Assembly: GCA_023130215.1 (NCBI GenBank)
Contig: JAGMAN010000015.1
Location: 1-8,840 of the forward strand
Direction: 5' to 3'
Length of the DNA: 8,840 bases
DNA from: a bacterium
Lineage (GTDB): Bacteria > NPL-UPA2 > JAGMAN01
The notes under the pieces were generated by a model. That model had not been told where the DNA came from and did no database searches. It saw nothing but the letters and a program-made list of their open reading frames with translations. Positions 5,388 to 8,347 of the stretch are shown here, one piece after another. Position 1 is the stretch's first letter; each line of letters starts with the position of its first letter. A program made the translations under genes and the position numbers.

Positions 5388-5535
5388 TTTTCTTCCTATT
5401 TTCACGGCAATCTCCCTCTTTAATAGCGGATTAGACTGACATTGAGAAAGTATTTTATGTTGCGACTGTGTTATTTCAACTTGGGCCTCGACTTGCTCAC
5501 CTTTTTTGCCTTAAGCCGAGCTTGGGAATGGGCAC

Positions 5536-6726
5536 TTAAAATGGTGGCAAAATAGCTCCTTTCTCTCTCAATCTTCTAAATTCTCTCTGCACCCGCCTCA
5601 ATTCTGCTTCCAACTTCTTTTCTTCCGGTAACTGCAAACGGTATTGAGAAGCAAGGACTTTGTTTTTCAATCCTCCCAGAGCGTAATGAACAACTGCCTC
5701 ATCTCGCTCAGCACATAAAATTATCCCCACGGGCGGATTCTCTTCCGGAAGCATCATATTCTCAGCCACAAAATTCAGATAAAGATTCATTTGTCCGGCG
5801 TCTGAATGAGTAAATTTACCAACCTTTAAATCAATTACTACCAGACAACGAAGTTTGCGATGGTACAATAACAGATCTATACGGTACCACTCATTACCGA
5901 TACGCAGACGCTTTTGACGGGCTACAAAAGCAAATCCATAACCCATCTCTAACAAGAAATCCTCCAGCTTATGAATAAGAGCATCTTCTAAATCTGACTC
6001 CGAATATTCATCTTTAAGATCTAAAAATTCCAATATGGTTGGGTCTTTAATTTCTTCTTCCGGAGTAATAATATCTTCTTTTTTAAGCCTCTGGCCTTTC
6101 TTCAACATCGCTGCTTTATTTTTTGAAAGTAATATTCTCTCATAAAATTGACTGCTTATCTGCCTGTCTAATTGCCTCACCGACCATGCACCGCGAATTG
6201 CTTCGGCTTCATAAAAATTTCGAACTTGTTCATCATCTACCGAAAGCAAACGAATATAAAGGGACCATGAAAGAGGAAATATTTTACTGACCTTTTCCAA
6301 AGGAACCGCTGTTAACCCTCCAGATAGTGTCCGGATCTTTGATTTCAACCCTTTTTTTCCTAATTGTGCAGACACTGCCTGCACTTTTTTATAATATGAT
6401 AGATAAAACAACCTCATTTGAAAGAGATTCCTTCTAGAAAAACCTCGCCCGAAACGCATTGTCAAATCTTTTGCCAGTCTTTCGATAATCTCTTCTCCAT
6501 ATTCAGCAGAAGGCTTTCCTTTCTGCTCAAATTTGACAATCCTACGTCCAATTTCCCAATAGGTGGCCGTAAGAATAGTATTAACGGCTCTAACAGATAC
6601 CCTTCGTGCATCTTCAAGAATGCTTGATATGCCTGATAACAAATCCTTGTATTTCGTATCTTTGCCAGTTAAGTTTAACGCCTTATAGCGCACAATTCTT
6701 TTTTCGCCAATCCTTTTTTTGCTCAC
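5536..6726 (-). CDS. DUF1016 / PD-(D/E)xK nuclease, YhcG family
   Basis: The protein has 396 residues and two parts. An N-terminal DUF1016 domain (about 25-200) has the family features LTATYWEIGRRIV, RFGRGFSRRNLFQMRLFY, LSWSLYIRLLSV and AWSVRQLDRQISSQFYERI. A C-terminal PD-(D/E)xK nuclease domain (about 225-370) has GYGFAFVARQKRLRIG, D284 in RIDLLLYH, D299 and K301 in VIDLKVGKF, and Q312 in GQMNLYLN, so the catalytic set appears intact. The end, rich in K/E/R, looks like a coiled coil. YhcG proteins are common in variable regions, often beside restriction or mobile genes; a DNA-cleaving or DNA-processing role is inferred. The start is GTG at 6724-6726 with AGGAG 6 nt upstream. It overlaps by 4 nt the stop of a mini-ORF upstream. 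It is convergent with the core operon and lies in the accessory block. Confidence 0.92.
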   Translation of the reverse strand: MSKKRIGEKRIVRYKALNLTGKDTKYKDLLSGISSILEDARRVSVRAVNTILTATYWEIGRRIVKFEQKGKPSAEYGEEIIERLAKDLTMRFGRGFSRRNLFQMRLFYLSYYKKVQAVSAQLGKKGLKSKIRTLSGGLTAVPLEKVSKIFPLSWSLYIRLLSVDDEQVRNFYEAEAIRGAWSVRQLDRQISSQFYERILLSKNKAAMLKKGQRLKKEDIITPEEEIKDPTILEFLDLKDEYSESDLEDALIHKLEDFLLEMGYGFAFVARQKRLRIGNEWYRIDLLLYHRKLRCLVVIDLKVGKFTHSDAGQMNLYLNFVAENMMLPEENPPVGIILCAERDEAVVHYALGGLKNKVLASQYRLQLPEEKKLEAELRRVQREFRRLREKGAILPPF

Positions 6727-6755
6727 TTACTACTCCTGTCTTTTATCTCTAACAT
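6723..6755 (-). other. 10-codon mini-ORF overlapping the DUF1016 nuclease start
   Basis: ATG at 6753-6755 opens MLEIKDRSSK and stops at a TGA that overlaps the nuclease GTG (GTGA). Its own ATG overlaps the stop of the fragment upstream (TAATG). It contains the ribosome site used by the nuclease. It may be a leader peptide or the tail of a lost gene; homology is not recognisable at this length. Confidence 0.35.
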
Positions 6756-6811
6756 TAATCAAAAATTCCCATTCCGTTTATTAACTCATTAATATTTGCC
6801 GGCAGTGCCAT
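6755..6811 (-). pseudogene. N-terminal fragment resembling AlbA_2/Schlafen-type protein (RecG-like regulators)
   Basis: The 18-codon frame MALPANINELINGMGIFD closely resembles the usual opening of AlbA_2-domain putative ATP-binding proteins (MALP-x-NI-x-x-LI-x-G followed by EWERLEFK). Here the match stops after the NG, and the frame ends four codons later. It is therefore read as the surviving N-terminus of a deleted gene. Its ATG overlaps the TAA of the fragment upstream. A functional leader peptide is the alternative. The family call rests on 13 residues from memory, so confidence is moderate. Confidence 0.45.
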
Positions 6812-6903
6812 TATGTATACCCTTTACGGCCACTCTTCATAATTACTTCTTTTACATCTTTCATCTCTTGCTTCTTCTTACACTTTACACAATGGGGTTC
6901 TAT
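6811..6903 (-). pseudogene. Truncated DUF5679-like zinc-ribbon gene with ATA where a start is expected
   Basis: The frame reads EPHCVKCKKKQEMKDVKEV then IMKSGRKGYT and stops. DUF5679 proteins are about 40-60 residues and read YCVKCK-x-K-x-E-(M/I)-K-(D/N)-x-K-EV-x-MKNGR followed by a second CPVCGTK half. The first zinc-binding pair (C4, C7 of this frame) and the middle are kept, and the second pair is missing, so a zinc ribbon cannot form. No ATG, GTG or TTG lies before the conserved part. An ATA at 6901-6903 sits 7 nt after AAGGA, exactly where the start should be, suggesting an ATG to ATA change; an in-frame stop at 6928-6930 closes the frame upstream. Deletion has joined it to the AlbA_2-like fragment. 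Confidence 0.6.
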
Positions 6904-6928
6904 GCTAGCTTCCTTCTGTATTAGCTGT

Positions 6929-6940
6929 TAGCAATTGCTA
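6929..6940. repeat. 12-bp perfect palindrome beside the attC-like site
   Basis: TAGCAATTGCTA is a perfect palindrome whose last base is the first base of the attC-like element's outer box. With flanks it reads GTTAGCAATTGCTACCTAAC, so a second, inverted GTTAG core lies 20 bp from the first. It could be an operator or a scar of a lost cassette end. Confidence 0.4.
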
Positions 6941-7028
6941 CCTAACGTTTCGAGCGTATCTGAAGTCCAGCCGTAGGCGGATTTGGGCGAAGGTGCGAAG
7001 CACCGTAGCCAGATACGCTTTGTTATCT
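6940..7028 (-). other. attC-like integron recombination site of the HNH cassette
   Basis: In the direction of the HNH gene the 89-bp element begins AGATAAC (7028-7022) and ends with GTTAGGT (6946-6940), a perfect match to the core GTTRRRY. Inside are 10-bp arms, AGCGTATCTG (6953-6962) and CAGATACGCT (7010-7019). Between the arms are two hairpins: 6963-6984 (6-bp AAGTCC/GGATTT plus GCC-GTA-GGC, one bulged A) and 6992-7004 (GGTGC-GAA-GCACC). The spacers between core boxes and arms are unequal (2 and 6 nt), as attC sites need unpaired or bulged bases for strand choice. It lies 47 nt after the HNH stop codon, where a cassette carries its attC. Length is in the normal attC range. No integrase is present. 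A structured RNA or other palindromic repeat is the alternative. Confidence 0.65.
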
Positions 7029-7037
7029 GCCGTCGTA
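7022..7037 (+). repeat. Inverted 16-bp boundary repeat, HNH 3' side
   Basis: GTTATCTGCCGTCGTA here matches the reverse strand of 7970-7985 at 15 of 16 positions, the first 10 without mismatch. The pair flanks the HNH gene. In integron terms this is the R'' region of the cassette's attC, complementary to the cassette's own 5' boundary. Confidence 0.75.
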
Positions 7038-7075
7038 ATAGGTGAAATGTTTCTTGAGGGAAAGATAGCTTCCAA

Positions 7076-7924
7076 TTATTTCTTGTAAATATTATGATAG
7101 TGGTATTCAATATATTCCTTTTTTGGAAACGGTGGTTTTAAAGTACCAATCCCATGTCCTCCACCATCTATCACAGCTATACCATCTTCTGGAGAAACTG
7201 CAATCTCTCCATAGTCAAACAATATATGATGATTGGGACATAAAACCAACATATTCGATTCTATGTCAGGTCCTTCTTGACCTAATGGCTTGACATGATG
7301 CGTTTCTGCATATCCCTTGCCTTTTATAATCAAGGTAGTACCACACACTTGACACTGATAATTACGTTCTTCTTTAATCTTATTAGATAACGCGGTATCA
7401 CGAACAGCCCTCGTGATCGTGGTAGTAATTTTGTTTGGTGGATATTCTTCATATCTCATGTCTGGGATTTCAGATAAAGATTCCTTATCGGTTGGCAGAT
7501 GTCCCAGCAAATTAATAAAATCCCCAACCGTGTGAAAGGGCTTACTATATTGCAGAGTTTTTCCAGTGCTAATTTTATACTCATTTTTATTCTTTCCCCT
7601 TCCTAGAGGCCAAAGACTCTCATTTACATAGCGTTCCACATCCTGATCCGTCAATAGGTATCCATTGTTAGGTGTTTCAAGTAATAGAACTATAAACCAT
7701 TTTTTACCAGATGTTTGTAGCTCTTCAATTCTATTCTTTGTCACTCCCCATCGATAAGGCGATTCAGATCGGATTTTAAAGTAGAGCAAGCAATTGATGC
7801 GTCCAGATAACTCAATTATATTATTGATCCTTCGTATTTTACTTTCGTATTTTTGACACTGAAAACCTCTTTCTTTTCCGATTCCCTCTAACATTGACAT
7901 AAATTCTTTTTGGATGCTGGCCAT
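7076..7924 (-). CDS. HNH endonuclease with an extra N-terminal domain
   Basis: The 282-residue protein ends in a zinc-bound HNH nuclease domain (about 175-245): C191 and C194 in YQCQVCGTTL, AETHHVKPLGQ (H209, H210), N224 in ESNMLVLCPNHHILFDYGE, with C229 and H232/H233 completing the zinc and metal sites. All expected residues are present. The N-terminal part (about 1-145) is not recognised with certainty; WGVTKNRIEELQTSGKKW and GYLLTDQDVERYV look like a conserved recognition domain, and IELSGRINCLLYFK recalls a degenerate PD-(D/E)xK strand pair. The start ATG has AGGTGAG 6 nt upstream. The gene lies between inverted boundary sequences with an attC-like site 3' of it and is visibly richer in A/T than the core operon. 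A restriction or defence nuclease is the likely role; an orphan with no methylase in view. Confidence 0.9.
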   Translation of the reverse strand: MASIQKEFMSMLEGIGKERGFQCQKYESKIRRINNIIELSGRINCLLYFKIRSESPYRWGVTKNRIEELQTSGKKWFIVLLLETPNNGYLLTDQDVERYVNESLWPLGRGKNKNEYKISTGKTLQYSKPFHTVGDFINLLGHLPTDKESLSEIPDMRYEEYPPNKITTTITRAVRDTALSNKIKEERNYQCQVCGTTLIIKGKGYAETHHVKPLGQEGPDIESNMLVLCPNHHILFDYGEIAVSPEDGIAVIDGGGHGIGTLKPPFPKKEYIEYHYHNIYKK

Positions 7925-7969
7925 TTCATTCTCACCTCGCTAATTTATTTTTTCTAAGGCTGGCTTTCC

Positions 7970-7985
7970 TACGATGGCAGATAAC
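7970..7985 (-). repeat. Inverted 16-bp boundary repeat, HNH 5' side
   Basis: Reading toward the HNH gene the sequence is GTTATCTGCCATCGTA, the partner of 7022-7037 (one mismatch). A G|TTATCT cut at 7985 would be the 5' end of the cassette, 61 nt before the HNH ATG, a usual distance in integron cassettes. Confidence 0.7.
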
Positions 7986-8053
7986 TGTTCATATCTGAAG
8001 TACTTCGTTTATGCTCCCAAATCGGTATATTTTGCGAAGTATTTCCATCAGAT
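7978..8053 (-). other. Folded element upstream of HNH, possible degenerate attC or attI
   Basis: Nested inverted repeats are seen: ATCTGA (7993-7998) with TCAGAT (8048-8053), GAAGTACTTCG (7997-8007) with CGAAGTATTTC (8035-8045, one G-T), and separately CAGATA (7978-7983) with TATCTG (7992-7997). Toward HNH it ends ACTTCAGATA then GTTATCT, sharing ACTTCAGATA with the attC-like site at 6940-7028, also just before a GTT core. I cannot find a matching outer RYYYAAC box, so it is degenerate, an attI, or unrelated. Confidence 0.4.
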
Positions 8054-8129
8054 CTAATAGCATGGAACCTGGCTCGTTTGTAAAAAAGGTTTGATATGTG
8101 TTCATTTCTTCACATTGAATAATACAAAG

Positions 8130-8144
8130 TGTGATAATTTGAAC
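8130..8144 (+). promoter_or_regulatory. 15-bp promoter-like sequence shared with the GT9 promoter
   Basis: TGTGATAATTTGAAC is identical to the minus strand of 816-830. At both places it holds an extended -10 (TG-n-GATAAT) and lies about 45-60 nt before a start codon: the GT9 TTG at 775 there and the ATG at 8200 here. Either a promoter module or a common operator; TGTGA at its start recalls a CRP/FNR-type half site, without a convincing second half. Confidence 0.45.
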
Positions 8145-8146
8145 TT

Positions 8147-8175
8147 ATTATACTGCTTTTAAGCGCTGCCGGCAA
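8147..8175 (-). promoter_or_regulatory. Sigma-70 promoter directed toward the HNH gene
   Basis: On the minus strand TTGCCG (8170-8175) and a perfect TATAAT (8147-8152) are 17 bp apart. Transcription would start near 8140 and cross the folded element at 7978-8053 before the HNH start at 7924. Its place outside the cassette boundary, firing in, is that of an integron cassette promoter. Confidence 0.6.
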
Positions 8176-8199
8176 GCCAAAAATTTGAAAGGTTTGGAA

Positions 8200-8316
8200 A
8201 TGGGAAGAGTCAGCGCAATGATAAATCTTCTCCTGTTCTTGGCTGCAATCGGAACAACCCTTTTAGCTGGTGCACTGCACGAAGGAGATAATCCCTTCAA
8301 GGACCTAAGTAAATGA
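8200..8316 (+). pseudogene. 38-residue ORF resembling the first helix of a site-2 protease
   Basis: The frame MGRVSAMINLLLFLAAIGTT continues LLAGALHEGDNPFKDLSK and stops. The segment TTLLAGALHEGDNPF is very like the region before the HExxH helix in bacterial and archaeal site-2 proteases (TTL-x-AGAL-x-x-G-x-[N/D]P), where GLPFSxxLLxILxxHExGH should follow; that part is absent. AAAGG lies 7 nt before the ATG, and a promoter-like sequence is 56 nt upstream. It is probably a gene remnant cut off beside the permease gene, or possibly a small single-helix membrane protein in its own right. The intergenic stretch after it to the convergent permease gene is 31 nt with no clear terminator. Confidence 0.5.
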
Positions 8317-8347
8317 GGAACTCTATTGTTAAGGAAATCTCTAAGGT

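Follow-up and report, generated by a model that had tools for sequence, protein, structure and literature searches.

The window analysed here, a stretch of 8,840 nucleotides of bacterial DNA, contains on its minus strand a gene for an HNH endonuclease, and it raises the question whether this gene is the cargo of an integron gene cassette which stands in its genome without an integrase. The original prediction had given this reading, and upon re-reading of the sequence its coordinates for the boundary, the ORF, R'' and R' were found to agree. The cassette which had been observed there is real, the reading as a whole is supported, and most of the checks proposed along with it came out in its favour. 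The locus is best seen as what a decayed array has left behind, a cassette which stands alone or was the last in line.

The unit of 1,039 bp which is read as the cassette comprises minus strand positions 7984 to 6946; its first base is the T past the G|TT junction of 7985/7984, and its last, at 6946, is the G in the G|TT found downstream. Its 5' boundary (7985-7979, minus strand) consists of a G at 7985 followed by TTATCT at 7984-7979, and the ATG of the HNH ORF at 7924 follows 60 nt past it. The leader at this boundary, TTATCTGCCATCG, is similar to the leaders of other cassettes belonging to the same attC family (for instance TTATACGCCATCG, TTATCTGCAATCG, and TTATCTGAAATCG), in which the consensus past the boundary is roughly TTAnnYGmmATnG. 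At its 3' end the unit runs into an attC site at 7028-6940 of the minus strand, with R'' at 7028-7022, stem arms at 7019-7010 and 6962-6953, and R' (GTTAGGT) at 6946-6940. The folded element of 89 bp ending in a perfect GTTRRRY which had been described is thus recovered, as R'' to R' measures 89 nt and GTTAGGT fits the motif. R'' (AGATAAC) departs from RYYYAAC at positions 2 and 3, yet this form is common in the attC family concerned.

A cassette which derives from a circle must have a start boundary complementary to the R'' at its end. This complementarity, already claimed for the first box, is exact, AGATAAC at 7028-7022 being the complement of the cassette's own start GTTATCT, a heptamer which by itself is common and occurs three times on the minus strand of the window. 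Ten cassettes of this family which lie next to one another in arrays have boundary and R'' in agreement at 33 of 40 variable positions (four per cassette), which is a lower bound because one of the ten, L036, was under-scored through a coordinate shift; the background is 1.95 of four for unrelated pairs and 2.2 of four within one attC. The rule is obeyed exactly by a PIN-gene cassette in a genome of the same order (G004:C1, GTTAGGC/GCCTAAC) and by a cassette with a GmrSD-type nuclease in the same phylum (G008:C18, GTTATAC/GTATAAC).

When folded as DNA, the bottom strand of the element yields -19.0 kcal/mol, with an outer stem of 9-10 bp and two inner arms forming hairpins, a fold which none of 200 shuffled sequences equalled (z = -3.9). 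Bulges and a three-way junction are seen when the bottom strand is folded, and they are at most candidates for the extrahelical bases which set the choice of strand in attCs. The AAC and GTT boxes are present in the putative attC (AGATAAC and GTTAGGT), and of the 47 distinct sites related to it 43-44 retain the AAC/GTT pairs. A simple scan for attC geometry, in which attCs known from class 1 integrons are detected with scores of 8-11.5, gave the element 11.0, the top score in the window. As this score was reached in 31 of 2000 Markov-simulated windows (1.6%), shape alone is suggestive and no proof; the same score together with a complementary own boundary 250-1500 bp upstream was found in none of the 2000.

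Plain BLAST of the region detected the element in a genome of the same genus (G002) and in G008, in both cases adjoining other genes. Covariance models were built from five sites (R1) and from ten sites (R2), and score the window site, itself in the training set, at 98 and 89 bits, respectively. Matches to R2 were obtained in 31 of 241 genomes, many of them in arrays, with 22 of 26 gaps between sites on the same contig being shorter than 4 kb; the element thus occurs beside other ORFs, as the cassette reading had called for. In the same-genus genome G001 (contig C82) two attCs 718 bp apart flank a DUF4258/MqsA-like gene pair. The attC covariance model which had been proposed as a check was run in a form based on nine class 1 integron attCs (R3) and gave no match in the window, but this model also misses the relatives of the site, among them both attCs of G001:C82 and the array in Bacteroidales described below, and is therefore too narrow to decide. 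Used in reverse, R2 does not credibly find class 1 attCs. A model built from the lineage itself thus detects sites which a class 1 attC model misses.

Another finding was the covariation of the stem. When 48 sites are aligned, each of the ten stem pairs has changes on both of its sides; 124 stem cells are changed in this way versus 48 +/- 6 in shuffles, while slid controls collapse. These figures are biased towards the model, to which the alignment was fitted, yet the effect is so large that there is hardly room for doubt. Two attCs, L039 (1847-1766, minus strand) and L037 (1354-1442), have L''/L' arms which do not pair and folds no better than shuffles; each has the look of a chimaera of two attCs.

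A homologous HNH gene is found in a cassette of another phylum. With the HNH protein as the query, and hence independently of the attC models, a contig of a Bacteroidales metagenome-assembled genome (L054) was found, where residues 125-282 are matched with 64% identity in the best segment. The gene lies between two attCs, spotted by eye and then matched by R1, with the same kind of boundaries. The first 20 bases of the window and L054 cassettes are identical at 17 positions, although the N-terminal coding parts differ; as other cassettes have similar leaders, this likeness may be a trait of the whole family and not of this gene in particular. In a plasmid search all HNH relatives were below 60% identity and none spanned most of the protein.

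As had been stated, no integrase accompanies the cassette: with the TIGR02249 IntI profile no protein of its own genome assembly, which is 90% complete, exceeds the cut-off of 265 bits, the best reaching 93 bits. A clear IntI of 405 bits is encoded in another genome of the phylum (G006) on a contig with core genes. This integrase (L057, G006:C41, 10926-12158) is extended at its N-terminus by about 100 residues, and downstream of its gene sequence resembling attI and attC was seen by eye. In G094, G155, and G179 no attCs of the R2 type were found beside the IntI genes (L117, L118, L119, and L120); these three genomes hold such attCs elsewhere, away from the IntI genes.

The small genome of the window has one recognisable attC only, as judged by R1 and R2, and a degraded second site is possible. 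A complete integron (intI plus attI) was not found in its 90% complete assembly. In IntegronFinder 2 at least two attCs are required for a CALIN, and one which stands alone is regarded as a possible true site (PMC9024848), so that the window locus is no CALIN but a single attC, while at least two attCs within 4 kb and no integrase are found in G001:C82. The original prediction had left the choice between a cluster of attC sites and a single insertion; of the two, the single insertion or remnant is the better match. With CALIN cassettes (IntegronFinder 2.0, PMC9024848) the locus shares an ORF plus attC, the lack of a local integrase, the complementarity of boundary and R'', and restriction-type cargo, and it differs in the number of recognisable attCs in the genome. 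Integrons in archaeal metagenome-assembled genomes are mostly CALINs, with attCs common to distant groups (Ghaly et al. 2022, PMC9668308). The cargo types and an attC family spanning distant groups are alike here, whereas the host is a bacterial phylum, represented here by nine genomes, and the attC family was modelled de novo.

The flanking genes had been taken for core genes, a claim which proved too simple, since the immediate flanks consist of remnants of genes and attCs together with a candidate defence gene. Upstream, a hairpin and direct-repeat element (7986-8045, minus strand) ends at the cassette boundary, with 81% identity over 7978-8045 to contig C65 of the same genome. Its core is also found in G008:C18, G001:C82, and G004:C12, and in C65 and G008:C18 it adjoins cassette-like boundaries. 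The full-length copy in G008 gives a weak R2 match of 19.2 bits and the copy in the window gives none; we take the element for a degraded attC, of which it would probably be the 3' half, or for an attI-like site. Further upstream lie what is left of a gene's 5' end (MNTDQTFFTNEPGS..., 8051-8113, minus strand; frame assigned by eye), with 81% identity over 63 bp to a gene in G008:C5 (L040), and a promoter-like stretch, TTGCCG-17-TATAAT, at 8137-8175 of the minus strand, which points at the cassette and is shared only with C65. Such promoter-like matches are in general no commoner than in shuffles. Downstream, what appears to be the start of a next, decayed cassette (TTAGGTAGCAATTG...) extends over 6945-6816 of the minus strand, and its part at 6893-6824 is about 75% identical in DNA sequence to G005:C55 and G007:C93; it contains a truncated small ORF which may belong to a DUF5679-like family. 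This is followed by a DUF1016/YhcG PDDEXK nuclease gene at 6726-5536 of the minus strand (Pfam YhcG_C, 2.5e-59; PADLOC PDC-S02, 4.6e-136), the candidate defence gene. With R2 no attC was found downstream of it, and it is a candidate cassette member at most.

These surroundings bear on the most serious competitor of the decayed array, in which IntI would have put a single cassette directly at a chromosomal site other than attC, a so-called attG, and no array ever existed here. Insertion at attG sites has been published (Loot et al. 2024, as cited in PMC12901181). The single attC in the genome agrees with it, as does the lone PIN-gene cassette in G004:C1, which lies among other genes with G|TT at its left junction and no attC seen leftward. 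Against it stand the upstream attC-like or attI-like half site, which is common to C65 and G008:C18, and the apparent leader of a second, decayed cassette downstream, two features which together suggest a former array; we therefore consider direct insertion at attG unlikely, though it deserves to be kept in mind.

A more daring proposal concerns the upstream module itself. Promoter-like stretch, variable middle, hairpin/repeat, and G|TT boundary are present in at least two copies in the genome (contigs C44 and C65), and might serve as a docking platform without integrase, where cassettes would be inserted in trans and transcribed from the module, in effect a Pc-attI unit apart from intI. We give this idea a slim chance. 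The second copy, in C65 (L044, G000:C65, 888-680, minus strand), contains the promoter-like stretch and the hairpin element ending in G|TTATATGAAATTCGG, and precedes an oxidoreductase-like ORF which runs off the contig; it is possibly a second cassette.

A precise absence of the unit in a related strain had been named as a further check. Contig C101 of the same-genus genome G001 has the locus without the segment containing the HNH and DUF1016 genes, but its junctions do not fall at the exact G|TT positions; no base-exact empty site was found in it, as the locus differs over the entire 5391-8204 and in other changes. This extensive difference from G001 could be taken as a sign that a transposon-like element, a MITE or an insertion sequence, brought the HNH gene. 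The ends of the unit carry no inverted repeats and obey the cassette rule instead, and no transposase was found among the proteins scanned, so that delivery by a transposon was set aside as very improbable. That the element is just a folded terminator or an intergenic inverted repeat resembling attC, for which the chance rate of its geometry score might speak, is refuted for practical purposes by the arrays, the boundary rule, and the covariation across many genomes, with no terminator-like site being found either, and has next to no probability left. A palindrome arisen by chance was likewise dismissed. Beyond the cassette, at 8205-8346, the start of a protease-like gene, presumably M50, is fused to its own downstream flank; the gene is whole in G001 and shortened in the window, where about 750 bp are missing compared with G001:C101.

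We are highly confident in the integron gene cassette, consisting of the HNH ORF and its own attC, as the explanation of the locus. What speaks against it is that R2-type attCs were not found beside the IntI genes of the three genomes named above, that the genome has a single attC, that no base-exact empty site was found, and that R'' deviates from RYYYAAC twice. In integrons generally, attC is recombined by IntI in the form of its folded bottom strand, and the circular cassette goes in at attI (PMC8352920). In the window the bottom strand would likewise be folded in the cell, and the cassette was probably placed by an IntI which worked in trans or was lost later. An older recombination site, partly deleted, would have adjoined the point of insertion, and the cassette would now be fixed in place without integrase. 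Its mobility, past and present, is what we infer from these features.

The ORF itself (7924-7076, minus strand) encodes 282 amino acids with matches to HNH_2/HNH domains (Pfam PF13391, E = 3.7e-9) and, at residues 146-264, to the modification-dependent restriction enzyme TagI (PDB 6ghs, E = 6.7e-18). Weak matches to a type IV mREase and to ZorE were obtained with PADLOC (E about 1e-6), and the NCBIfam model PT-DNA_restrict gave 47 bits, under its cut-off of 180. The C-terminal HNH part thus resembles the TagI/McrA-type enzymes (PDB 6ghs and 6ghc), whereas the protein is unlike them in this score far under the cut-off and in its N-terminal 145 or so residues, for which searches of Pfam, NCBIfam, and PDB gave no match and recognised no domain reading modified bases. 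These similarities make a modification-dependent restriction nuclease the most likely cargo, an enzyme which would cleave modified or foreign DNA and in this way restrict the latter. Other cargo of the attC family includes the GmrSD-type nuclease of G008:C18, the PIN gene of G004:C1, and the DUF4258/MqsA-like pair of G001:C82. Cassettes commonly carry genes for restriction and for toxin-antitoxin systems; in archaeal cassettes with predicted function, toxin-antitoxin accounts for 10.5% and methylation/restriction for 8.3% (PMC9668308).

Integron cassettes are thereby documented in a bacterial phylum which has been sampled sparsely and in which one full IntI is encoded, and related cassettes carrying restriction-type nucleases occur in unrelated groups. 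This type of cassette is already known, and the interest of the locus is modest and lies in the host group, the relative across phyla, and the restriction-type nuclease bound to a cassette. Rfam scans of the window found nothing credible at the element, their sole result being a 6S RNA (RF00013, 118.5 bits) at 911-1092 of the plus strand, immediately before an MgsA-type ATPase gene.
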